Origin: a bacterium
GTDB lineage: Bacteria; Bacillota; Clostridia; Oscillospirales; Acutalibacteraceae
DNA: 64,000 nucleotides
Reading direction: 5' to 3'
NCBI GenBank assembly: GCA_022774755.1
Contig: JALFLK010000021.1
Coordinates: 1 to 64,000, forward strand
Made by a program: the position numbers and the translations under genes. Shown here piece by piece: positions 722-14,565 of the stretch. Below the pieces are notes generated by a model. It ran no database searches and was not told the DNA's origin. It saw only the letters and a list, made by a program, of their open reading frames with translations. Numbering within the stretch: position 1 is the stretch's first letter; the number at the start of each line of letters is the position of its first letter.

Positions 722-735
722 CGAGTGGGAATAAT
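722..735 (+). repeat. Putative att core, left junction (cgagtgggaataat)
   Basis: 13/14 match to 13526-13539. Confidence 0.65.
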
Positions 736-793
736 CACAGAAAGTCTAAAAACCCAGTAATATCAAGGATTTTCGGACTTTGCCGACCCCTTT

Positions 794-811
794 TGATAAC
801 GATTTGATAAC
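794..811 (+). repeat. Arm-type direct repeat TGATAAC-gatt-TGATAAC (left end of the element)
   Basis: 72 nt after the core; matches the pair at 13408-13425. Confidence 0.6.
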
Positions 812-971
812 ATCATTTGAAGTGACTATTATTCTATACCCCAAGTGGCTTGTAGGTTATCAGAATAATTCTCAAATGGCTGTTACCAAGAAATAAATCT
901 GTATTATACGATTAAAAAGCCTTTAACTGTGGATTTGTACCGCAGTTAAGGGCTTTTTGTCGTCTTTTTTC

Positions 972-1502
972 TTAGTCGGGTTTCAGGCGATCTTTGAAGG
1001 TGTCTAACATTACATCGTTCAGTTCCCCCGAAGGAACCTTTACCCAACCGCCCGTCGTGTCGAACTTAGGATAGTGGTAACGCCATTGGTCGTAGGTATC
1101 TTTATCAATCTCACCTACATCGAGTTTGGCTTTTTGCTCTTTCCAAGCGGTAAGCATATGAATAACCTCTGCGGCATCCTTGCCCTTCTCAGAGTTGACT
1201 TTAAGACAGACTTCCCCATCTGCTTCGCTGACGGTAATGCCGTAAATATCCTCAAGGGCAAACAGCGTGTGCATCAGACCTATGTAACTGTCAATATCGG
1301 GCACATTCAACGCTTCCGGTGCTACATCCAAAACTTGTGCCAACGCTGCGGTAATATCTGCTTTTGGAGTACGGGAACCTGTTTCATACTGTGCCATACG
1401 AACATCAGCAGATTTATCGGGAAAACCGAGTTGTAAACCGAGATATTTCTGTGTCATTCCACGCAGATTTCGGAAAAAGTGAATTCTTTCGCTAATAGCC
1501 AT
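972..1502 (-). CDS. XRE-family helix-turn-helix transcriptional regulator
   Basis: N-terminal HTH 'NLRGMTQKYLGLQLGFPDKSADVRMAQYETGSRTPKADITAALAQVLDV'. Confidence 0.85.
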   Translation of the reverse strand: MAISERIHFFRNLRGMTQKYLGLQLGFPDKSADVRMAQYETGSRTPKADITAALAQVLDVAPEALNVPDIDSYIGLMHTLFALEDIYGITVSEADGEVCLKVNSEKGKDAAEVIHMLTAWKEQKAKLDVGEIDKDTYDQWRYHYPKFDTTGGWVKVPSGELNDVMLDTFKDRLKPD

Positions 1503-1548
1503 AGTAATTACGCTCCTTGTTTACATACTGTGCAATCAGTATAAGAAC

Positions 1549-1605
1549 CTGTCAAGCATCGGGTAGTATTTTCTGCGAAAATCTCCACCCTAACTTGCTT
1601 GACAG
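1549..1605. other. Long hairpin in the 5' leader of the XRE gene
   Basis: CTGTCAAGCA (1549-1558) with TGCTTGACAG (1596-1605), perfect 10 bp; inner GGG/CCC and ATTTTC-TGC-GAAAAT (1568-1582). Confidence 0.6.
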
Positions 1606-1639
1606 AACCTTGTATTGGGTGCAATTTCATTGTACACCC

Positions 1640-1768
1640 AGTATAGCAGAAATGTTTAGTGGTGTCAAGAGAAATCAAAACAAAAAAGTTTAGTATTTTC
1701 TTGCAAGCCACTTGACAAAAGCAAATATGCTTAGTATAATGATATAAAACTAAGCATTTACGCTTAGT
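1640..1768. promoter_or_regulatory. Divergent promoter/operator region (XRE gene versus xis-int)
   Basis: Plus strand: TTGACA 1712-1717, 17 nt, TATAAT 1735-1740. Minus strand: TTGACA (1663-1668), 17 nt, TATACT (1640-1645). Repeats ATGCTTAGT 1728-1736, ACTAAGCAT 1749-1757, ACGCTTAGT 1760-1768, ATGTTTAGT 1652-1660. Confidence 0.75.
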
Positions 1769-1922
1769 AAAATTGAATGACCGTCCAAGTGTGATATGAT
1801 TTTGTCAAGACCTCCGAGTGGCGACGGAGCGAGCGAAACAACGCCGTTGAAACAGCAGGGGTAGGAACGGCACTTGGGTAAAACGGCACCCCATTATACT
1901 AACCGAAGAAAGGAGGAAACTT

Positions 1923-2123
1923 ATGGGACAACAGTTTATGCGAGTGGAAGAAGTCGCTGAGATTCTCGATGTTTCAACCTCGTATGCCTACAAAGTCATA
2001 CGAGAGCTGAACGAGGAACTGAAGCGTAAAGGCTTTATTACCATATCAGGAAGAGTCAACAGAGAGTATTTTAATGAAAGGCTGTACCAAGCCAGAAAGG
2101 AGAACAAAAATGCCTGTTTATAA
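1923..2123 (+). CDS. xis: Excisionase-like helix-turn-helix protein
   Basis: 66 aa, 'FMRVEEVAEILDVSTSYAYKVIRELNEELKRKG', immediately upstream of the integrase; good RBS aaaggaggaaactt. Confidence 0.75.
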   Translation: MGQQFMRVEEVAEILDVSTSYAYKVIRELNEELKRKGFITISGRVNREYFNERLYQARKENKNACL

Positions 2124-3198
2124 AAATGAAGATAACGGAACTTGGTATGTTTTAACACGATATGTAGATTGGAAAGGCGAGCGCAAACAGAAATGTAAGC
2201 GAGGTTTTGAAACCAAACGTGAGGCTCAGGAGTGGGAGCGAGTATTTAAGCAGCAAAGTGCTGCCGATATGGATATGAACTTTTCCGCCTTTGTTGAGCT
2301 TTATATAAAGGACATAAAACCTCGCTTAAAAGAAAACACTTGGCTGACCAAAAAGCATATCATTGAAACCAAGATTTTACCCTATTTTGAAAAGAAAAAT
2401 GTCAGTGAGATCACCACAAAGGATGTAATCGCTTGGCAGAATGAATTGCTCGCTTTTCGTGATGAAAAGAAGAAGCCGTATTCACAGACCTATCTCAAAA
2501 CCGTCCACAATCAGCTTAGTGCTATATTTAACCACGCTGTAAGACATTATGACCTTCGTTCCAATCCCGCCGCAAAAGCCGGTAATATGGGCACAGAGGA
2601 ACACAAGGAAATGAAGTTTTGGACAAAAGACGAGTACAAGAAGTTTGTCGATGAAATGATGGATAAGCCCGTTTCCTTTTATGCATTTGAAATGCTGTAT
2701 TGGTGCGGTATCCGTGAGGGCGAATTACTCGCTCTGACTGCGGGAGACTTCGACTTTGAAAAAGGTACGGTAACAATCAGCAAGTCCTATCAGCGTTTGC
2801 ACGGTGAGGATGTAATTACCACACCGAAAACAAAGAAAAGTAACCGCACCATCAAAATGCCGCAATTCCTTTGCGAAGAAATGCAGGATTATATCGGTAT
2901 GCTTTACGGCTATAAAAAGAAAGACCGTATTTTCCCGATTTCGAAGAACTATCTGCACCGTGAAATGGATCGTGGCTCAAGAGCCGCAGGGGTGAAGCGT
3001 ATCCGCATTCACGACTTGCGTCACAGCCATATCTCCCTGCTCATTGATATGGGATTTTCTGCGGTGGCAATCGCTGACCGAGTAGGTCACGAAAGCATTG
3101 AAATCACTTACCGCTATGCACACCTATTCCCGTCAAAGCAGACGGAAATGGCAAAGAAACTTGAATATGAAAGGATGGATATTGAAAATGTCAGCTAA
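2110..3198 (+). CDS. int: Site-specific tyrosine recombinase (phage-type integrase)
   Basis: R..HxxR..H..Y pattern: 'GIREGELLALT', 'RIHDLRHSHISLLIDMG', 'VGHESIEITYRYAHL'; N-terminal SAM-like domain. Start MPVYKNEDNGTW. Confidence 0.93.
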   Translation: MPVYKNEDNGTWYVLTRYVDWKGERKQKCKRGFETKREAQEWERVFKQQSAADMDMNFSAFVELYIKDIKPRLKENTWLTKKHIIETKILPYFEKKNVSEITTKDVIAWQNELLAFRDEKKKPYSQTYLKTVHNQLSAIFNHAVRHYDLRSNPAAKAGNMGTEEHKEMKFWTKDEYKKFVDEMMDKPVSFYAFEMLYWCGIREGELLALTAGDFDFEKGTVTISKSYQRLHGEDVITTPKTKKSNRTIKMPQFLCEEMQDYIGMLYGYKKKDRIFPISKNYLHREMDRGSRAAGVKRIRIHDLRHSHISLLIDMGFSAVAIADRVGHESIEITYRYAHLFPSKQTEMAKKLEYERMDIENVS

Positions 3199-3520
3199 AA
3201 ATCTTGACCATCACAACCGTTGGAGAAGTAAAACAATCGCTTTTCGAATGTCGCCACAGGAAGCGGATATTTTGGATAGCAACGTTAGACTATCGGGACT
3301 CACAAAGCAGGATTATCTTTGCGCCCGTGCCATGCAGCAGCAAATTACGGTGGTAGGCAATCCGAGAGTTTATAAGGCTCTGCGAAACGAGCTTGCCACC
3401 GTCCTCGATGAACTTAAACGCATCGAAGCCGGCGCAAATGTTCACGATGACTTGCTCGACCGTATTGAGCAGATTAACACCACGCTATATGGAATGAAGG
3501 AGCGAAAGGATGGCATATAA
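3188..3520 (+). CDS. MobC-like plasmid mobilization relaxosome protein
   Basis: Start ATG 3188 overlaps the int stop. 'HHNRWRSKTIAFRMSPQEADILDSNVRLSGLTKQDYLCARAM' resembles ribbon-helix-helix MobC-like proteins. Confidence 0.65.
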   Translation: MSAKNLDHHNRWRSKTIAFRMSPQEADILDSNVRLSGLTKQDYLCARAMQQQITVVGNPRVYKALRNELATVLDELKRIEAGANVHDDLLDRIEQINTTLYGMKERKDGI

Positions 3521-3641
3521 AACCGAAAAGACTGTTCTCAATGTATCTGTTGGCGCAGATACGGAACAGTCTTCTCAAAAATGTACTGCAAATATTATAT
3601 CCTATGACTCCTCCAATTTCAATAGTTTTGAGAAAAATTGA
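3510..3641 (+). CDS. Small hypothetical protein (43 aa)
   Basis: MAYKTEKTVLNVSVGADTEQSSQKCTANIISYDSSNFNSFEKN; overlaps the mobC-like 3' end and precedes the rep-like gene; below the ORF-track length cutoff. Confidence 0.4.
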   Translation: MAYKTEKTVLNVSVGADTEQSSQKCTANIISYDSSNFNSFEKN

Positions 3642-3656
3642 AAGGAGGTAACGCCT

Positions 3657-4631
3657 ATGGCGGAATTAAAAATCATCAGTATGGATGAAGTAGCCGTTGA
3701 AAAAGTGGAATGGCTGTGGTATCCCTATATCCCATACGGTAAGTTGACAATCATTCACGGCGACGGCGGTGAAGGAAAGACAACACTGATACTGCGATTG
3801 GCGGCGCTGTTGTCAAGGGGAGAAAAGCTACCCTGCGACGACACCGAGCGAGAGCCGATCAAGGTAATATATCAAACTGCAGAGGATGGGCTTGGGGATA
3901 CCATCAAGCCCCGTCTTCTTTCCGGTAATGCAGATTGCTCACAAATCAAGGTGATCGACGAATCTGAGGCAGCATTGACGATGCTTGACGAGAGAGTAGA
4001 AAAGGCTATTGCAGAAACGGGCGCAAGGGTAATGATCTTAGATCCGATGCAAGCCTATATCGGTGCAAAGGTAGATATGAACCGAGCAAATGAAGTCCGT
4101 ACCATTCTCTCTCAGCTTGGCAGGATCGCCGAGAAATACCGTTGTGCGATTATACTTGTGGGACACTTAAACAAGGCACAGGGTAACAAATCCAATTACA
4201 GAGGTCTCGGCTCTATAGACTTTCAAGCAACTGCAAGAAGCGTGCTTGTGGTCGGCAGAGTAAAGGACAAGCCGGAGATACGAGTGGCGGCTCATCAAAA
4301 GTCCTCCCTTGCTCCGGAAGGCAAGCCTATCGCATTTGAACTGAGTGAAGCCAACGGATTTAAGTGGCTCGGTCATTATGATATTTCCATCGACGATCTT
4401 CTCAGCGGTGTCAGTCGTGAGAAGAAATCCGATATGGCTGAAAGCCTTATCGTTGACTGCCTATCCGGCGGGAAGTACCCGCAACAGACCTTGCTACAAA
4501 AAGCGCAGAGTTTGGGTATCTCCAAACGAGTGCTCGATGAAGCAAAGAAAACTCTGCGTGTGCGATCTGTTAAGGAAGGCAGTGTGTGGTATTGGCAACT
4601 ACCCGAAGAAAAAGAGAGCGGCGACCTGTAA
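3657..4631 (+). CDS. AAA family ATPase, RepA/DnaB-like (AAA_25)
   Basis: Walker A 'IIHGDGGEGKTTLILRLAALLSRG'; 'VMILDPMQAYIGAKVDMNRANEVR'. Confidence 0.8.
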   Translation: MAELKIISMDEVAVEKVEWLWYPYIPYGKLTIIHGDGGEGKTTLILRLAALLSRGEKLPCDDTEREPIKVIYQTAEDGLGDTIKPRLLSGNADCSQIKVIDESEAALTMLDERVEKAIAETGARVMILDPMQAYIGAKVDMNRANEVRTILSQLGRIAEKYRCAIILVGHLNKAQGNKSNYRGLGSIDFQATARSVLVVGRVKDKPEIRVAAHQKSSLAPEGKPIAFELSEANGFKWLGHYDISIDDLLSGVSREKKSDMAESLIVDCLSGGKYPQQTLLQKAQSLGISKRVLDEAKKTLRVRSVKEGSVWYWQLPEEKESGDL

Positions 4632-4637
4632 GGTTGC

Positions 4638-4888
4638 AACATTGCAAAGGTGCGGGACTTTCGCAATCTTGCAATGTTCTTTTTCGGCAGGTATGCCAAC
4701 ACGAAGTTTAGGCGGGGTGCAGGGTGCCCTTTTCAAAGGGCGGCTCTGCTGGGGAGTTGTCCGCAGACAACGGGGCAACGCCCCGCAACCCCCTCGGAGA
4801 GCGCAATAGCAGCTTTTGATGGCAGAAGGCTGTCAAAAGTGCTTTTGCGTTACTCTTGACAAGAGTAACAGAACCCCGGCTACGCCGG
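4638..4888. other. Hairpin cluster upstream of the relaxase: candidate oriT
   Basis: Perfect inverted repeats: 4638-4647/4669-4678; 4726-4732/4735-4741; 4757-4761/4766-4770; 4771-4776/4780-4785; 4813-4819/4833-4839; 4849-4857/4861-4869; 4876-4880/4884-4888. Confidence 0.4.
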
Positions 4889-4911
4889 ATAAGGAAAGGA
4901 TGTGAGATTTT

Positions 4912-6090
4912 ATGAAAAGAACGATAAGCGCAATGGTCGGTAAAGGCTCTGTCAATCATAACAGCCGCAAGTTCAAAGCGGAAAATGTTGACGGCAATCG
5001 AACATGTCTTAATATCGACTACTGCAATGAAAATATCAAAAAAGTCTATCACGAATTGTTTGACAAAGCACTTAAAAGGTACAACAATAAACAGACAAGA
5101 GCTGACCGCAGAATAGAAAATTATTATGAGAAAATCAGAAATTCAAAGCAGGAAAAGCCGTTCCACGAACTCATTTTGCAGATAGGCGATAAAGAAAACA
5201 TGAGCGCAGAAAGCGAAAACGGAACACTTGCAAGAGAGGTTTTGGACGAATATTATCGTGGGTTTCAGGAAAGAAATCCTCGGTTAAAGGTGTTCTCTGC
5301 TCATCTGCATATGGATGAAGCAACACCCCATTTGCACATTGACTTTGTTCCGTTCACCACGGGTAGTAAGCGTGGACTTGATACAAGAGTATCACTCAAG
5401 CAGGCTCTTGCCACCCAAGGTTTTAAGGGCGGGACCCGGGGAGATACCGAGTGGAACCAATGGGTAAGCGCAGAAAAATCCGCACTCGCATTTGTGATGG
5501 AACGCCACGGAATTGAGTGGGAACACAAGGGTACTCACGAAAAACACCTGTCTGTTTTGGATTACAAAAAACAGGAACGAGAAAAAGAAATCGCTGTATT
5601 GGACAATCAACTTGCCGAGAAAAAAGACGAGTTTCGTGTTATGGTTGACCGCATTGAAAACTTCGATAACGGAGAAAAATCTTTACAGAAACTTGATGAA
5701 AGTATAATGAATGAGCCTGAATATCAGTTGCCTGAACCGCCTGCAATGATGTCGGCGAGAAGTTATAAATCAAAGTTTATTGAGCCGCTTATAGCTCGAT
5801 TTAAGTCTTTAATCAGCACCTTATTTGCACGATATTTCAAGGCGATAGATAGTTATAATAGGTTAAATATTACGAATGCAAATCTGTACCGTGCTAACGA
5901 AAAGCTGGCAAAGGTTAATGAAAAATTATCACAAGAAAATGAAAATCTTCGTGCGGAAAACAGGGATTACAAACTTCTCCGCAAAGTATTTGGTCATAAA
6001 CAAATTTATGACTTGCTTGATAGAGCAAAGTTGGAAAAACAGTCTAAGCAGCGTGAAAAACGCTTTAGAAATAATAAAGATGAAAGGTAG
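4912..6090 (+). CDS. MobV/Pre-family relaxase (plasmid recombination/mobilization protein)
   Basis: Metal-binding motif 'FSAHLHMDEATPHLHIDFVPF'; N-terminal layout of Mob_Pre; C-terminal coiled coil. Confidence 0.88.
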   Translation: MKRTISAMVGKGSVNHNSRKFKAENVDGNRTCLNIDYCNENIKKVYHELFDKALKRYNNKQTRADRRIENYYEKIRNSKQEKPFHELILQIGDKENMSAESENGTLAREVLDEYYRGFQERNPRLKVFSAHLHMDEATPHLHIDFVPFTTGSKRGLDTRVSLKQALATQGFKGGTRGDTEWNQWVSAEKSALAFVMERHGIEWEHKGTHEKHLSVLDYKKQEREKEIAVLDNQLAEKKDEFRVMVDRIENFDNGEKSLQKLDESIMNEPEYQLPEPPAMMSARSYKSKFIEPLIARFKSLISTLFARYFKAIDSYNRLNITNANLYRANEKLAKVNEKLSQENENLRAENRDYKLLRKVFGHKQIYDLLDRAKLEKQSKQREKRFRNNKDER

Positions 6091-6099
6091 GACAACACA

Positions 6100-6477
6100 A
6101 TGAAACAGCATTTTACAGACGAAAAAACGGGGATCCGTTACACCTTGCAGGGAGATTATTATCTGCCTGACCTTGCGTTACCCGCTGAAGAACAACAGCC
6201 AATCGGTATATGGGGACAACGACACTTGCGACACATCAAGCAAAATCGAAGGGTGTTATACACCAATTTGCTGACCAGCGGCAAGTTAAACAGTTACCTT
6301 GCTGATATTGACAAACAGGCGGAAGAAATGTTTTCCCGGCTGGTGAAACAGATGGCAGAGCGTGAGGGTGTGACCGAACAACTCAAAGTCGATAATCAAA
6401 TGGCGTGGGTTGCTCGGATGAATAACATTCGTAGCAGAGGCACCGAGGTCGTGAATACAGATTTTATTTACACCTAA
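6100..6477 (+). CDS. TnpV-like transposon-encoded protein
   Basis: 'GIRYTLQGDYYLPDLALP...PIGIWGQRHLRHIKQNRRVLYTNLLTSGKLNSYLADIDKQAEEMFSRLVKQMAEREGVTEQLK'. Confidence 0.8.
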   Translation: MKQHFTDEKTGIRYTLQGDYYLPDLALPAEEQQPIGIWGQRHLRHIKQNRRVLYTNLLTSGKLNSYLADIDKQAEEMFSRLVKQMAEREGVTEQLKVDNQMAWVARMNNIRSRGTEVVNTDFIYT

Positions 6478-6487
6478 CCGGTAAAAA

Positions 6488-6521
6488 GCGGCAGGGATTT
6501 TGCTCTCTGCCGCCGTTTTTT
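6488..6521. terminator. Intrinsic terminator downstream of tnpV
   Basis: GCGGCAG...CTGCCGC followed by cgttttttt. Confidence 0.75.
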
Positions 6522-6668
6522 ATTGGTTGTTTTCTGTATCATCACAGGTGATTTTATTGTACGCTAAGACATCGTTAATCTCTTTGTCGTCGCATACAAA
6601 ATCGCCATCCTTAAACTTGTTTAAGGCAATGATGCTTTGGCTTTTTCAATAATAATATGGTCTTTCAT
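6520..6668 (-). pseudogene. Small ORF downstream of the helicase, apparently frameshifted (about 49 aa if intact)
   Basis: RBS ggagaatagttATG; MKDHIIIEKAKAS then a shift into IIALNKFKDGDFVCDDKEINDVLAYNKITCDDTENNQ*. Length 149 nt = 3n+2, consistent with a 1-nt deletion. Confidence 0.5.
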
Positions 6669-6670
6669 AA

Positions 6671-9600
6671 CTATTCTCCTTTTATTTTTAGCTTTCCTTC
6701 AATTTCTTCAACTCTGCCTGTAGAAATTAAAGCATTTACTGCATTGGACATTGCTGACGAAATATTTTGACCTGCTCTGTTAAAACCGTAAACACGTGTG
6801 GTTTCCGAGCAAAGCGCTTCTCTTGTAGTTCCGACGCAAGTTTGCAAAACTCTAAACATTGCTTCAGATAGTTCTTCAATACAGATGTGTTGAATTTTTC
6901 TACTGTTTGGCATACGAACAGGAATTGTTTCATAACCATTCGGGAAAATAAAATCGCCTTTACGAACAATTCTTGTTCCCAATCGTGCCAAGCCTATATC
7001 GGCTTCTCGACGAATCTTGACTGTCGCCTTTTCATTTCCGAACAGAGGAGCTAATCGTTGACAAAGCAATTCGTAATGTACAGGATATTCTGTATTAACC
7101 ACTTCCATAATACAATCTGTTAATTCTAAATATCCATATCTGTTACGAGGTAAAGATGAGAAATTCGGCAATTCTGCTTCCTCAAATCCATAAGGGTTTT
7201 CCGTGGATTGAACCGACAATTCTTTTTCTTCAACGCTTACAAAATCATCAGCACTTGTATTTTGAGTATTGTTTGTTAAATTCAACTTAATAGCATCTTC
7301 ATCTATACCATAATTGGCAATAGCATTTTCAATGGCTTCAACAAGTTTTTGTCCTTCGGTTATGGGATCTTTTATCCAATCGGTAGACCATATACGATAG
7401 ATTTTCCAACCCATATTTTCAAGGACATCTTGTCTTAAACGGTCACGTTCTCTGGCAGTTTTTGCAGAGTGATAAGCGGCACCATCGCATTCTATACCTA
7501 AAACATAGATTCCGCTCAATGTAGGATGCTTTACAGCCATATCAATTCTATAACCCGAACATCCTACTTGTGTTGCAAGTTTATAGCCTTTTCTATCGAG
7601 GAAATTATACACCGCTTCCTCAAAAGGTGAATCATGCTCTACAATATCGCTTTCGGTTATTTCTCTTTCAAGCACCTGTGTACCATTTATTGCAAAATCG
7701 ATATACGCTCTTAACAGCTTCGGACCCTCAGAACTAATTTTATCAATATCGATATCGGTAGGCATAATCGAGCCGACAAGTTTTACATTATATTTTGCTC
7801 GAGTAATTGCAACATTTAAGCGACGCTCACCACCTGATTTGCTAAGAGGTCCGAAATTCATCCTGAACACACCTGCGGCATCCTTAGCATATCCTATGCT
7901 GAAAATGATGGTATCTCTTTCGTCACCCTGAACATTTTCAAGATTTTTTATAAAGAATGCTTCCTCTTTATCTTCTGAAAAGAACGGCTCAAATTCTTGA
8001 TTTTGAATTCTTCTTTCTCTAATTACAGTTTCAATGGCTTGTTGTTGAACTTCACCAAATGCAATAACACCTAAAGAACGATAGGGTTGTTCTTTGAAAT
8101 GTTTAAATACAAGATCAGCTACTTTATTAGCCTCTATAACATTTCCTTTCTTACCGCCTCGATCATAATAGCCATCTGCTACATATATGTATTCGACACC
8201 ATTATTCTCTACTTTTTCTATGTTTGAGGGGAACGTAATGAGTTTGTTTTTGTAGATTTTGGCATTAGAAAAAGCAATCAAGCTTTCGTGCCTACTTCTG
8301 TAATGCCATCTTAAAGTCCTTTCCGGCAACATATTTGCTTCATCCAGAATGGATTCATAAGCATCTGAATCGTCAAATTCGTCGTCATCATCAGTGTCAA
8401 AATCACCTTCCGACACTGCTGCCTGAAAGAAATTTGTGGGAGGCAATTGTCTGCTATCTCCGGCAATGACAACTTGCTTCGCTCTTGAAATTGCACCAAT
8501 GGCATTTTCTGTGCACACTTGAGAAGCCTCATCGAAAATTACAATATCAAATTTGTATGTTTCAGCTTCCAAAAACAAACTAACCGAAAGTGGAGACATC
8601 ATTAAACAAGGCTTCAGCGTAAGCAACAAATTAGGGATAGCTTTAAATAAACGTCTGATTGGCATAATTCTGCGTTGCTTATTCAACTCTCTTTTCAATA
8701 TGCTTATTTCATCGACACCATTTGTAAAATGTTCAAGAGAAGGCAAGTCATTAATAAGCTTGCTTTTGATTCGAGCTTTTGCAATTTCAAATTGCATTTT
8801 ATCCAACGATGTGAATTCATCAATGGTCGCTTCCTGCATTTTTCTTCTGAAATTCAAAACAGCAGGATATTCAGGAAGTACAGCATCCAACCACAAGCGG
8901 AAGAAACGCTTCTTGAAAATCGGTATAATATCCTGTGACGGAATATTGTGCTGTTCAATAACCTCTATAAAACTGCTCAATCCGCCGGCTATACAGTTTG
9001 CTTTTGCGGAATTGAAATCGATCCACTCTTCCAATAAAAACAGTCCGTTAGCGCAAGCATTTAACCTATTATAAAGATCGGGAAGTTCTATTGTATCAAA
9101 TATTTCAGGATGAGCAAAATTTGATACAAACCACCTGTACTCGAAAGATATCGTACGCTTAAGTTCTTCCAAAGTATCATTTTCTTGTTTGCAGATGTCA
9201 ATGAATTCATTTCCATCACATACCGCTTTGACAAAATAATCTGAAACGTTTATTTTAGATATGCTGTCCTTAAATGATATTGCCCAATTTAAAGCACTAC
9301 GGATTGCCTCCCAGTCGGATAAAATTCCGTTATACAAGAATTGGTAATGTTCTTGCAATAATTGTTCCTTATCACTAATGTGATTGAAAATTTCAACCAT
9401 ATCGTTAATGATTTTAATTGCATTATTTATGGCGTTGAATGCTATAATACGTTTTTGATAAACAGTATAATCTGTGTTTTCATCGACAACATCTTCGCCA
9501 AAATATTCCCTCAATGATTTAGCGTTATCGGCATACCATTGCCTTGTTTCGTCTATTTTGCGAAGTTTCTCGACAAGAGACAGCATTTCTTCATCGCTGA

Positions 9601-11686
9601 TTTTCTTAACAATATTCTTATGATGAAGTTGTATTGCCTTTTTGTCCTGTTTGTATTCTTTCTTGAAAACCTTTGTAAACGAGGTGTATTCTGTTTTGAT
9701 TCGTCCTAATATTGCATTGTAATCCAATTCAAAAACCGTTGGTTCATATACCTCAAGGAGTTCATTCTTTAAGGCGTTTATTTCATTAGCCGTTTCAATA
9801 GCCTGTGACAACAGGGCTGTTACGCTATCAATTACATCTGTGTTCCAAGCAGAATAAGGCTTAGTAGAAGTAACTAATTCTTTTAAGTTTCGTTTCTCGC
9901 TTATTAAAGCAGAAGTATTATTTAAAGAATCAGCAGAAGAAAGCTCCGCTATTGATTCATTTGTGTGAATTGTTTTATATTTATCTGCTAAATTATCTGA
10001 CAATGAAATAAGTTCTTTTTTTAGTTTGATGCAATTTGTAATTTCATCAAACAAAGGCTGAATTCCATCAGTCAGTATCCATTCTGATGGGATTTTTTGT
10101 GCTGATTCAATAACATTTAGCACTTCAATTATTTGGTCCACATTTTGGAGAGTATGCGGTACATCCATATGTAGTGTAACAAATACTTCTGCTAGCTTTT
10201 CATCAAAATCTTTGAGTTTAGGCAAAAGATTATTAAGGCGGGAAGTTGCATCGTGTCTAAACTCGTTAGAAACAGATGTTAAGTGGCATTCTCGCCAAGG
10301 ATTGTTTTTAAAGTCATCTGTCATTTTTCCAATGGTGGTAGCAAATTGAGCTAACAGATAACTATATTTATTATATTGTTCTTTTGTCACATTGCGAATA
10401 TCGCTAATATCGAAGATATAATCATCGTAACTATCTAAGTTTGCTACAATACCGTTCACTTCATATATTGATTTACCAAGAGGTTCAATTTTTTCATATA
10501 CTTGCTCAGCATAAGCGTTTAATTTATCCTTGTCTGCTTGTAAAACATTTAATTTTTGGTATGCCTCATCAGTCAATTTAACTTTTTTCTGACTAAGATC
10601 CAATACTTTGCCGAGTTGGTCTAAAACGTTTCTTTTATTTGCCTTATGACTATGTAAAACAAGACAGAAATCAGCTAAGCCGGCACTTGATAATCTGCGG
10701 TGGACGACATCAAGAGCTGCCATCTTTTCAGAAACAAATAAAACCTTTTTACCGTCGGCAAGACTTTCGGCAATTATATTTGTAATCGTTTGGCTTTTAC
10801 CGGTGCCGGGAGGCCCCTGTAAAACAAAGCTAACGCCTTTTTTTGCCATCATGATAGCATCTTGTTGACTGGCATCGGCATCTACAACTTGAAACACATC
10901 AGTCGGTTTCATCTGCTTATCAAAATCGAAATCTGTCATTTCGTCAGGAATTCTGGTAATAGCAGACGCATCACCACTTATTGCTCTTACGATAGGATTA
11001 GCAACGATAGATTCTTTATGTTTGTTTAAATCTGAATACATATTGATTTTCAAAAAAGAAAGCAGACTCAGCCCAACATCCTTTGTAACTGACCAGTTCT
11101 TTAATGTAATACTTCTTTTGACTTCTTCAAGAAAGTCGTCAATATCCCCGTTTTCATCAAACGTAGGCAGAGTAATTCCAAAATCATTTTCAAGTTTATA
11201 AACAAGGGTGGGATTGACAACGATTTCATCTTCGTGAAGTGTTAAAGTATATGGAGATTTAATTGATTCGATTGTTAATGTAACCGGAACTAAAACTAAC
11301 GGAGATGTAAAACTCTGATTGGAGTTTTCTGATTCTGTCCATTTCAGAAAACCAAACGAAAGATACAAGACATTTACACCTTGTTCCTCAATAGCAGTCT
11401 TTGCCTTATTTCTTAAATTTCTAAGTGCTTTTTGCAAATCACTGGTATTTTTATTAGTTTCAACATTAGAAACATATTCGATTTCTGAATTTTCTTCGTC
11501 GTATTCAAAAGGAAAAACCAATGCGTTCTCTTCTTTTACAATCATATTATACAGAGTGCCGCACTCGGGGTATTCAATTTTAACATTTGAGCGTGCAGTA
11601 TCTTTATAATTCAACAATCTATTGCGTTTTCCTAAATCCAATAGTTTGTTTTTCCAAACATCATATTTAACGTCAATATTTGCCAT
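6671..11686 (-). CDS. DUF4011-type superfamily 1 helicase with Vsr-like (MTES_1575-type) nuclease and DUF3320-like C-terminus
   Basis: Walker A 'SFVLQGPPGTGKSQTITNIIAESL'; 'FDIVIFDEASQV'; 'VAITRAKYNVKLVGS'; nuclease 'GIECDGAAYHSAKTARERDRLRQDVLENMGWKIYRIWSTDW'. Start 11686 has RBS ggaggtagttATG, better than the ORF-track start at 11710. Confidence 0.88.
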   Translation of the reverse strand: MANIDVKYDVWKNKLLDLGKRNRLLNYKDTARSNVKIEYPECGTLYNMIVKEENALVFPFEYDEENSEIEYVSNVETNKNTSDLQKALRNLRNKAKTAIEEQGVNVLYLSFGFLKWTESENSNQSFTSPLVLVPVTLTIESIKSPYTLTLHEDEIVVNPTLVYKLENDFGITLPTFDENGDIDDFLEEVKRSITLKNWSVTKDVGLSLLSFLKINMYSDLNKHKESIVANPIVRAISGDASAITRIPDEMTDFDFDKQMKPTDVFQVVDADASQQDAIMMAKKGVSFVLQGPPGTGKSQTITNIIAESLADGKKVLFVSEKMAALDVVHRRLSSAGLADFCLVLHSHKANKRNVLDQLGKVLDLSQKKVKLTDEAYQKLNVLQADKDKLNAYAEQVYEKIEPLGKSIYEVNGIVANLDSYDDYIFDISDIRNVTKEQYNKYSYLLAQFATTIGKMTDDFKNNPWRECHLTSVSNEFRHDATSRLNNLLPKLKDFDEKLAEVFVTLHMDVPHTLQNVDQIIEVLNVIESAQKIPSEWILTDGIQPLFDEITNCIKLKKELISLSDNLADKYKTIHTNESIAELSSADSLNNTSALISEKRNLKELVTSTKPYSAWNTDVIDSVTALLSQAIETANEINALKNELLEVYEPTVFELDYNAILGRIKTEYTSFTKVFKKEYKQDKKAIQLHHKNIVKKISDEEMLSLVEKLRKIDETRQWYADNAKSLREYFGEDVVDENTDYTVYQKRIIAFNAINNAIKIINDMVEIFNHISDKEQLLQEHYQFLYNGILSDWEAIRSALNWAISFKDSISKINVSDYFVKAVCDGNEFIDICKQENDTLEELKRTISFEYRWFVSNFAHPEIFDTIELPDLYNRLNACANGLFLLEEWIDFNSAKANCIAGGLSSFIEVIEQHNIPSQDIIPIFKKRFFRLWLDAVLPEYPAVLNFRRKMQEATIDEFTSLDKMQFEIAKARIKSKLINDLPSLEHFTNGVDEISILKRELNKQRRIMPIRRLFKAIPNLLLTLKPCLMMSPLSVSLFLEAETYKFDIVIFDEASQVCTENAIGAISRAKQVVIAGDSRQLPPTNFFQAAVSEGDFDTDDDDEFDDSDAYESILDEANMLPERTLRWHYRSRHESLIAFSNAKIYKNKLITFPSNIEKVENNGVEYIYVADGYYDRGGKKGNVIEANKVADLVFKHFKEQPYRSLGVIAFGEVQQQAIETVIRERRIQNQEFEPFFSEDKEEAFFIKNLENVQGDERDTIIFSIGYAKDAAGVFRMNFGPLSKSGGERRLNVAITRAKYNVKLVGSIMPTDIDIDKISSEGPKLLRAYIDFAINGTQVLEREITESDIVEHDSPFEEAVYNFLDRKGYKLATQVGCSGYRIDMAVKHPTLSGIYVLGIECDGAAYHSAKTARERDRLRQDVLENMGWKIYRIWSTDWIKDPITEGQKLVEAIENAIANYGIDEDAIKLNLTNNTQNTSADDFVSVEEKELSVQSTENPYGFEEAELPNFSSLPRNRYGYLELTDCIMEVVNTEYPVHYELLCQRLAPLFGNEKATVKIRREADIGLARLGTRIVRKGDFIFPNGYETIPVRMPNSRKIQHICIEELSEAMFRVLQTCVGTTREALCSETTRVYGFNRAGQNISSAMSNAVNALISTGRVEEIEGKLKIKGE

Positions 11687-11700
11687 AACTACCTCCAAAA

Positions 11701-12597
11701 TTACATCCATTTCCCACTATAAGCAGACCATTTGTCAATAATCTCTTTACCTTTGACTGCCGCTACAAACGGTTCTGTAAGAAACTCTTTTATTGTTTTC
11801 AGCACAGTACCGTAATCATCGGTTTTTGTATCAATTTTTCGGACAAATGCTTTCCATTTCTTTTGCATTGCGCCGTCTCTGTCAAAGCCCATTACCTGTT
11901 CAAACTGTTCAACAGTAAAGGCGTGTCCACGATTTTCAAAAGTTTTCTTCAGTGCTTCGGTGAGCATCTTGCCGTCAAAATCAAATTTATTGGCAAGATA
12001 GTAAATATCGTAGTAATCTTTCATTCGGCTTGAAAATTCCATAAGACTGAGAATAGCGTCTATCTTCTCGGCAATGGTTGTTTCAAGGGAGTATGTATTT
12101 ACTGTCGGGGCGTCAAAGTCGGAAAGCTGTGTCGGAATTTTTCGTTTTTCCTGTTTCGGTACAATGACATCCCCTACACCGAAATCAATACTGAACGGTG
12201 TTTTGGTGTTTTTAATGCGAGCTACCACCGATGCACCGATTCCTGCATACTTTTTGGCAACAGCAATAGGGGCAACATCTTTAATTTCAAAAGTGATAAA
12301 GTCGTTTCCGGTAGGTGTTGCAATAATTTCCTCCAACACCGCTTTTAACTGCTCCGGTGTATTTGGTATTTGGCGGAGCAAAAAGTCTACATCAACCGTT
12401 ACTCGGCTGTCAAAGTCGGTAAGTGAATAGATAAACAATCCGCCTTTCAGCACAAGATTTTCTGCATATTTGGATTTTTCCAAATGGCGCAGAAATTCCT
12501 CTTGGCAAAAGAGCTGCAGACAAAGCTGATAACTTCTTCCGCTTTCGGCAGCCTTATTTCTCAGTCGTGCAAGCACGGATGCAGCAATATCAGCCAT
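11701..12597 (-). CDS. AbiEii/AbiGii-type nucleotidyltransferase toxin
   Basis: 'LVLKGGLFIYSLTDFDSRVTVDVDFLLRQIPNT', 'PFSIDFGVGDVIVP', 'TIAEKIDAILSLMEFSSRMKDYYDIYYLAN'. Confidence 0.9.
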   Translation of the reverse strand: MADIAASVLARLRNKAAESGRSYQLCLQLFCQEEFLRHLEKSKYAENLVLKGGLFIYSLTDFDSRVTVDVDFLLRQIPNTPEQLKAVLEEIIATPTGNDFITFEIKDVAPIAVAKKYAGIGASVVARIKNTKTPFSIDFGVGDVIVPKQEKRKIPTQLSDFDAPTVNTYSLETTIAEKIDAILSLMEFSSRMKDYYDIYYLANKFDFDGKMLTEALKKTFENRGHAFTVEQFEQVMGFDRDGAMQKKWKAFVRKIDTKTDDYGTVLKTIKEFLTEPFVAAVKGKEIIDKWSAYSGKWM

Positions 12598-13219
12598 TAA
12601 GCAGTACCTCCATTACATTCATCATTTTTTTATAAACGCCCATTTCTTTTGCATATTTGGAAAGGGTGGCAAGGTTTTTCTTTTCGTCTGATACATAGGC
12701 GTTGATTGCTTTATTAAATATCTCATTATCCAGCTTCGTACGGTATTTGAAACAGTCACAGATAGTGCGTTCACGGTCATATACGGGAAGTGTGACACCG
12801 TTAAAAGTACCTGTTGTTTCACCGAGGTGGTACATATCGTTCTGAACATAATACGCCTTTACCGGTACTTTTTCCTGTATGGCTTTTACGGTTCTGGAAT
12901 AGGAACGGGGAACGGCAATCGTCCACTCACGGGGCGCAAAATCGCTGTAACCGTAATAAAACAGCGCCGATTCAACACAAACGATGCCTTGTGTCATCAA
13001 TTTGGAAAGGAGAACTTCTTCTTTGAGTTCATCCCCAACAGACAGTTTATAATAACCATACCTGACACGTTCAATATATCCCTGCTTAAAAAGTGTATAA
13101 ATATCTTGTTCTTTCAGTCCGGCAGAAATGAAATCAGATTTCTTTGCAACTTCACCGACTGTATTAAATACTTCGTTTACGATATCGTTCTTACTCAAAC
13201 TGCCACCAACTTTCTGCAT
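12590..13219 (-). CDS. AbiEi-family antitoxin / transcriptional regulator
   Basis: 'FISAGLKEQDIYTLFKQGYIERVRYGYYKL...ESALFYYGYSDFAPREWTIAVPRSYSR...YDRERTICDCFKYRTKLDNEIFNKAINAY'; 8-nt overlap with the AbiEii gene. Confidence 0.88.
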   Translation of the reverse strand: MQKVGGSLSKNDIVNEVFNTVGEVAKKSDFISAGLKEQDIYTLFKQGYIERVRYGYYKLSVGDELKEEVLLSKLMTQGIVCVESALFYYGYSDFAPREWTIAVPRSYSRTVKAIQEKVPVKAYYVQNDMYHLGETTGTFNGVTLPVYDRERTICDCFKYRTKLDNEIFNKAINAYVSDEKKNLATLSKYAKEMGVYKKMMNVMEVLLNG

Positions 13220-13407
13220 GCAGTATTCTCATTATGCGTGTTTATATTATAATAGATTGTTTCCTAAATCGCAAGAGGTTTGCACGCTTTTTGTCAATCT
13301 TGCGTGTAAATTTTGAAAAACATATTGCAATTTGAGGTCAAGTACGCTATAATACAAACATAACACTTCCATATTATCCACGGTGAAATTATTCTTGTTA
13401 TCAACCA

Positions 13408-13425
13408 CGATAACAAAATGATAAC
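13408..13425 (+). repeat. Arm-type direct repeat cGATAAC-aaaa-TGATAAC (right end of the element)
   Basis: 118 nt before the core at 13526. Confidence 0.6.
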
Positions 13426-13525
13426 AAGGGCATTTTAGCAAAGGATAATACAGATACATCGTAAAATCAAAACAGAGAGACTAACGAAAAGCAAAATTGC
13501 ATAAACAGAATTGTTTAGTCCTCGT

Positions 13526-13539
13526 CGAGTGGGAATGAT
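13526..13539 (+). repeat. Putative att core, right junction (cgagtgggaatgat)
   Basis: 13/14 match to 722-735. Confidence 0.65.
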
Positions 13540-13764: not shown

Positions 13765-14565
13765 ATGGACAGATTAAAAGATAAGGTAGCTATTGTAACA
13801 GGCTCTACAAGCGGAATCGGCGTAGGAATTGCTCAGCTTTTTGCCGCTGAAGGCGCTAAAGTTGTAATTTGCGGACGCCGTGAAGCTAAAGGACAGGCAG
13901 TAGTTGACAGCATTACAAAAGAGGGCGGAGAGGCAAGTTATCACTTTATGGATATTACCGCAACCGACAGCATTGAAGCTTTGATTAAGGATACTGTTGA
14001 GAAATACGGTAAGGTTGATATTCTTGTAAATAACGCTGCAAATGTTGCTCTTAAAGACGGTCGTGTTGACGAGCTCACACTTGATATGTGGGACGGCATT
14101 TTCCAGAGCGATGTCAGAGGCACTTTCTATGCAATTAAATGCGTTCTGCCTTATATGACAGAAAACGGCGGCGGTTCTATTATCAATATCGGCTCTATGG
14201 CTTCCTGCGGTGGCGACTTAGGTTCAACAGCTTATGCTTGTGCAAAAGCCGGTGTTGATATGCTTACGAAGTCAACTGCTTTACAGTACGGCAAAAGCAA
14301 CATTCGCTGCAACTGCGTTCGTCCCGGCTTAATCGTTACTCCTGAGAATGAGGCTAACGTACCTCAGGTATTAAAGGATATTTTCCTTAACAACATTATG
14401 GTTAATCGTTACGGTTGTCCTAAGGATATTGCCAATATGTGCGTTTACCTGGCTTCTGATGAGAGCGAGTACTTTACAGGTCAGGTTGTTACCGTTGACG
14501 GCGGCTTGAACGCTCACGTTTCAACCGTTGGACAGTTCAAAGAAATGAAGTCACGTACTTGGTAA
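13765..14565 (+). CDS. SDR family NAD(P)-dependent oxidoreductase
   Basis: 'VAIVTGSTSGIGVGIAQLFAAEGAKVVICGRR', 'NNAAN', 'YACAKAG'. Confidence 0.93.
   Translation: MDRLKDKVAIVTGSTSGIGVGIAQLFAAEGAKVVICGRREAKGQAVVDSITKEGGEASYHFMDITATDSIEALIKDTVEKYGKVDILVNNAANVALKDGRVDELTLDMWDGIFQSDVRGTFYAIKCVLPYMTENGGGSIINIGSMASCGGDLGSTAYACAKAGVDMLTKSTALQYGKSNIRCNCVRPGLIVTPENEANVPQVLKDIFLNNIMVNRYGCPKDIANMCVYLASDESEYFTGQVVTVDGGLNAHVSTVGQFKEMKSRTW

Follow-up and report, generated by a model that had tools for sequence, protein, structure and literature searches.

AbiE modules have been described in S. agalactiae and in ICESsuHN105. In both, the AbiEi and AbiEii genes overlap, the toxin belongs to the nucleotidyltransferase family, and a promoter with a 17-bp spacer is associated with two inverted repeats (PMC3985639, PMC11062541). 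That the antitoxin AbiEi controls its own operon by way of these repeats is established both for S. agalactiae (PMC3985639) and for ICESsuHN105, where AbiE also stabilizes the element (PMC11062541). Two other kinds of system are relevant here: the DUF4011 helicase-nucleases Hhe, ProA, and PDC-S37, and the WYL repressors BrxR and CapW, which precede diverse defence systems (PMC9122601).

In the window (the whole stretch of 64,000 nucleotides analysed), genes of the first two kinds stand together on the minus strand in the order AbiEi, AbiEii, helicase-nuclease. As in the known pairs, the AbiEi gene (12590..13219) overlaps the AbiEii gene (11701..12597), here by 8 nt, and the helicase-nuclease gene (6671..11686, within an ORF reaching to 11710) begins 14 nt past the AbiEii stop. 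The junctions of -8 and about +14 nt given in the preliminary description are thereby confirmed by the ORF coordinates and by the RBS-supported helicase start, the latter being the probable ATG at 11686 preceded by the predicted RBS GGAGGTAGTTATG. The annotated AbiEi start at 13219 should probably be corrected to the TTG at 13198, because the RBS ahead of this TTG, GAAAGTTGGTG, is conserved among relatives. AbiEi, the antitoxin and regulator, matches the PADLOC AbiEi profile (E=1.2e-59, 199 bits) and had no match in the Pfam profile search of the window ORFs. AbiEii carries the AbiEii/DUF1814 nucleotidyltransferase domain (PF08843, E=1.2e-47, 163 bits against a cut-off of 22.5; PADLOC AbiEii, 2.9e-92). 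Known AbiE is described as bicistronic, whereas here a 5-kb helicase-nuclease gene follows with no evident promoter in the gap.

A fourth small ORF had been described after the helicase. It does begin 2 nt past the helicase stop and is preceded by an AAGGAG-like RBS, but three-frame translation of 6520..6668 on the minus strand gives merely 15 codons (6668-6621); the stretch beyond, up to 6520, encodes 35-36 residues (ALNKFKDGDFVCDDKEINDVLAYNKITCDDTENNQ*) in a different frame. Neither piece has a relative among the compared loci, and the ORF is treated as a putative remnant. A terminator-like hairpin (6488..6513; a 10-pair stem with a T tract, listed for the plus strand) lies between this operon and the convergent one.

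The Pfam domains of the large protein are DUF4011, an SF1 helicase core (AAA_11/AAA_12), and an MTES_1575 nuclease, with a DUF3320-like region that scores below threshold. The DUF4011, helicase, and nuclease parts of the earlier domain assignment thus stand, but the nuclease profile is MTES_1575 (3e-38) and not Vsr. MTES_1575 and Vsr belong to one broad nuclease fold group. Across 11 relatives the helicase Walker A (GPPGTGKS) and Walker B (DEAS) motifs are invariant, as are D1390 and ECDG 1407-1410 of the nuclease. Solved structures that match the protein are solely SEN1/SMUBP-2-like helicase cores. The protein aligns at length to all three described DUF4011 helicase-nucleases and is ~100-230 residues shorter than the ProA and Hhe models. 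It scores 899 bits with Hhe (NF042953), below the NCBI equivalog cut-off of 2000, and 1340 bits with ProA (NF058533) over residues 13-1645, below the NCBI equivalog cut-off of 1500. The PADLOC profile PDC-S37 covers most of its length in three stretches (1475 bits, E=0). It would therefore best be filed as a PDC-S37-type relative, with the caveat that PDC-S37 is a candidate family, so that membership is no proof of anti-phage activity. On the Pfam, PADLOC, and NCBI profiles, the earlier placement of both AbiE and the helicase among known or candidate defence genes is supported.

Among the promoter-like sites in the operon the best is TTGCGA-17-TATAAT (13246..13274, minus strand; sigma-70 type, 10/12 matches), which lies immediately ahead of abiEi and whose -10 position is kept in 6 relatives. 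There is no promoter-like site in the 14-nt gap before the helicase. Inside the operon genes promoter-like matches occur at the frequency predicted by chance, and the helicase could be transcribed separately from an internal promoter. The abiEi promoter is flanked by two dyads of 26 bp each, also on the minus strand: IR1 (ACACGCA-N13-GCGTGC, 13282..13307), upstream of the -35 box, and IR2 (ACACGCA-N13-GCATGC, 13216..13241), downstream of the -10 box. Since a count of repeated words in abiE promoters was not significant, the promoters were instead tested for dyads against shuffled sequences and control windows; for this, six loci (the window and five relatives) were aligned on the -10 box. All six have inverted repeats at matching positions; the letters vary between relatives while the arms stay largely complementary, that is, they co-vary. 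The six-sequence score was reached by 0/300 shuffles for IR1 and by 4/300 for IR2, whose statistical support is moderate, and the test gave no signal at two control placements. Within the element that carries the operon, the ACACGCA-N13-GC(G/A)TGC dyad occurs solely at these two sites.

Conserved dyads at the promoter, together with the paired repeats bound by AbiEi elsewhere, make it likely that AbiEi represses the whole operon, including the helicase. The sequence therefore fits the earlier suggestion of possible autoregulation. In this context, the DNA-binding half of AbiEi diverges faster across relatives (35-63% identity) than the C-terminal half (65-84%).

The setting of the operon is best read as the variable cargo slot of an integrative mobilizable element of ~12.8 kb (723-13536) at the guaA 3′ end. 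The predicted boundaries are two plus-strand copies of the guaA-end sequence GAGTGGGAAT, at 723..732 and 13527..13536. The same 10-mer ends guaA on another contig of the same genome (C9) and recurs at every element junction, two of them on C9; its chance expectation in the window is 0.07. Between the repeats lie a minus-strand gene for an HTH repressor typical of this guaA-element family (972..1502; PF01381, E=1e-4, just under the cut-off; homologs in the C9 elements) and, on the plus strand, a small ORF (1923..2123) whose equivalents lie beside the C9 integrases and whose function is presumably that of an excisionase, a tyrosine integrase (2074..3198; PF00589 1.7e-20, PF14659, PF14657), a NikA-like mobilization protein (3098..3520; PF21983 1.2e-13), a RepA-like AAA_25 ATPase (3657..4631; PF13481 8.6e-28), a Mob_Pre relaxase (4912..6090; PF01076 1.7e-19), and TnpV (6100..6477; PF14198 1.5e-47). 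Integrase and relaxase are thus enclosed by site repeats, and no mating-pair genes are found among the ORFs of 723-13536.

On contig C9 (L069/L070, G000 C9:1-25130), guaA is succeeded by two entire elements of this family in tandem and by the beginning of another. The window contig (C29) opens within the last part of an element, and the AbiE-helicase element comes next. We infer that the ends of C9 and C29 join; the Mob gene of a third element is absent from the assembly. At the contig start, positions 131-589 encode the C-terminal part of a Ppl-like ATPase, which probably represents the end of the cargo of the tandem element before this one. The C9 elements carry other defence cargo: in the first, two genes for Mrr-type nucleases, of which one includes a RuvB-like ATPase region, and in the second, two C5-methyltransferase genes plus further genes of unassigned family. 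Of the examined genomes of the genus, at least 5 have this integrase family at guaA or close to it. An SDR gene at 13765, on the right flank of the element, has an 82% relative within the genus; that relative was not seen beside guaA, and no empty insertion site was found.

The reading that we favor, and consider probable, is that AbiE regulates itself, heads and maintains the defence cargo of the element as an exchangeable module, and is not one half of a dedicated composite system. In this model the type IV toxin-antitoxin pair forms the 5′ leader of the cargo operon. AbiEi would most likely bind both dyads that flank the one strong promoter and so repress a transcript that extends through the helicase-nuclease gene. 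AbiEii, as the predicted toxin, would keep the element in the population through addiction and may also act in abortive infection. The helicase-nuclease would be a defence protein in its own right, similar to PDC-S37, ProA, and Hhe and able to act without AbiE, which presumably loads on and cuts invading DNA. The two would be linked by transcription and common mobility and not by a dedicated biochemical partnership, with the downstream defence gene being swapped between elements.

The exchange of partners is seen when close relatives of the AbiE pair are compared. Relatives of the window's AbiEii occur in 34/394 order genomes, and of the 13 close AbiE loci with intact AbiEii, only the window's own has the helicase next. 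Eight of the 13 have a tight same-strand gene after AbiEii, and five have none. Among relatives with at least 50% AbiEii identity, the cargo is diverse: AbiE is followed by a small ORF and then a type III RM system (L210), by an LmuA-like gene (L172), by a PDC-M50-like gene (L218), or by a set of Hsp70/UvrD-like genes (L219). At L171 and L220 the next gene is unassigned (340 residues in L171). L213 in genome G669 shares with the window the element family and the AbiE lineage (AbiEii 80%, AbiEi 64% identity) and likewise has a tight junction to the next gene (-8 nt in L213), but carries different downstream defence genes, a type IIG RM system and Gabija. Two more distant AbiE pairs also stand ahead of defence genes (PDC-S56 and a methyltransferase).

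Freely exchanged partners and a variable cargo slot would also be expected if AbiE and the helicase were two independent cargo genes, neighbors by chance in a mobile element with no regulatory or functional link, and an AbiEii gene is present anywhere in just 13 of 63 helicase genomes. We nevertheless regard such an accident as unlikely: tight same-strand junctions between AbiE and the next gene recur, in the eight close loci mentioned above, and the sole strong promoter, with its putative operator dyads, lies ahead of abiEi.

Viewed from the helicase, the association is loose. We searched ~1,180 genomes sampled at class, order, and phylum level as well as 150 from the family; PDC-S37-family helicases occur in 48/391 class genomes and 26/394 order genomes. 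AbiE precedes the helicase in two genomes, that of the window and G016, corresponding to 2/~17 close helicase loci, and the AbiE subfamilies differ. The G016 pair, 35 nt ahead of the helicase, consists of an AbiEi of DUF6088 type and an AbiEii from a different subfamily, and a protein kinase gene follows the helicase. Thus, the neighborhood is not literally unique to the window's genome, but the pairing recurs only once. By our own estimate, random scatter (18 AbiEii genes, 63 genomes of ~2,300 genes each, ~75 helicases) would give ~0.01 AbiEii-helicase neighbors; the excess over this value does not prove an AbiE-helicase link because mobile defence genes cluster. Other close helicases are preceded by HipA-like and HTH genes (G089), by an XRE gene (L035, L037, L042, L039), or by nothing comparable. 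In the plasmid and phage collections, one related helicase was found on an Aristaeella plasmid, with no AbiE adjoining, and one in a weak phage record; on viral contigs the relatives are mostly distant.

The preliminary description proposed that AbiE and the helicase-nuclease act as one composite anti-phage module. In a dedicated system of this kind the two would share a pathway: a phage that interferes with AbiEi might both derepress the helicase and free the toxin, or the helicase might sense infection with AbiEii executing the shutdown. The tight operon junctions agree with this idea, as do the G016 locus, with a different AbiE subfamily directly ahead of the same helicase clade, the HipA-like/HTH pair ahead of a third helicase (G089), and the XRE genes ahead of others. 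The G016 and G089 pairs hint at a possible preference of these helicases for toxin-antitoxin or HTH genes in the leading position. However, the toxin-antitoxin pair is absent from most close helicase loci, and most close AbiE loci carry other cargo or none, the window's own AbiE lineage preceding other defence genes. Moreover, the G016 locus has a 98% identical counterpart in genome G275 (L258, C27), where the helicase is cut at residue 250 and most of it is gone together with the following genes, while AbiE is intact. Collectively, these data make a composite module improbable. A related idea, to which we also give little credence, is that AbiE is a sensing switch, in which infection disturbs AbiEi, with simultaneous release of the toxin and derepression of the nuclease encoded downstream. 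If this were true, any defence gene inserted behind AbiE would become infection-inducible and addictive. Finally, that AbiEi chiefly regulates excision or transfer of the element, with the helicase as a bystander, has a precedent in ICESsuHN105, where AbiEi binds oriT and controls excision (PMC11062541), and is very unlikely here, given that the element has no operator-type dyad elsewhere, including near oriT or att.

The exchangeable leader that we favor resembles BrxR/CapW in that a small autorepressor with inverted-repeat operators (an operator role that is predicted here) stands ahead of exchangeable defence genes. AbiEi differs in that it belongs to a separate family, is an antitoxin, and comes with a toxin of its own; a penalty is therefore expected when the leader is lost. 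The components are of known kinds, and the part of interest is the conserved operator ahead of varied defence genes; our literature search found no paper that describes AbiE at the head of defence operons. The arrangement bears on the question of why toxin-antitoxin genes accumulate in defence islands. With one antitoxin repressor and a conserved putative operator ahead of different defence genes in one mobile-element family, three possible roles of the pair become directly testable: protection of the element, control of defence-gene dosage, and induction of the defence gene by infection. The loci that combine AbiE with a helicase, RM, Gabija, or an LmuA-like gene provide a natural swap set for such comparisons.

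Some further observations concern the relatives of the helicase. Three loci (L035, L037, L042) contain near-identical helicase and XRE blocks in records named Angelakisella, Clostridium polynesiense, and Oscillibacter, reflecting either recent transfer or contamination. In L039, L040, and L169 the helicase ORF is split, which suggests frequent inactivation or assembly errors. In G089 (L076:7878-14785), the HTH and HipA-like kinase genes lie directly ahead of the helicase-nuclease gene and form another toxin-antitoxin-like leader. A related helicase in L074 (7871-18000) adjoins a CBASS-like set (CD-NTase-like, E1/E2-like, and JAB-like, as judged by eye) that includes a metallophosphatase-SAVED protein (Pfam). 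A Ser/Thr kinase gene follows the helicase in L077 (5386-14804), L072, and L146; in G016 and G755 a conserved MSGPK-type protein is encoded further downstream of helicase and kinase, and on the Aristaeella plasmid FHA, AAA ATPase, and phosphatase genes come after the two. The helicase-kinase loci possibly represent a phosphorylation-linked defence operon.
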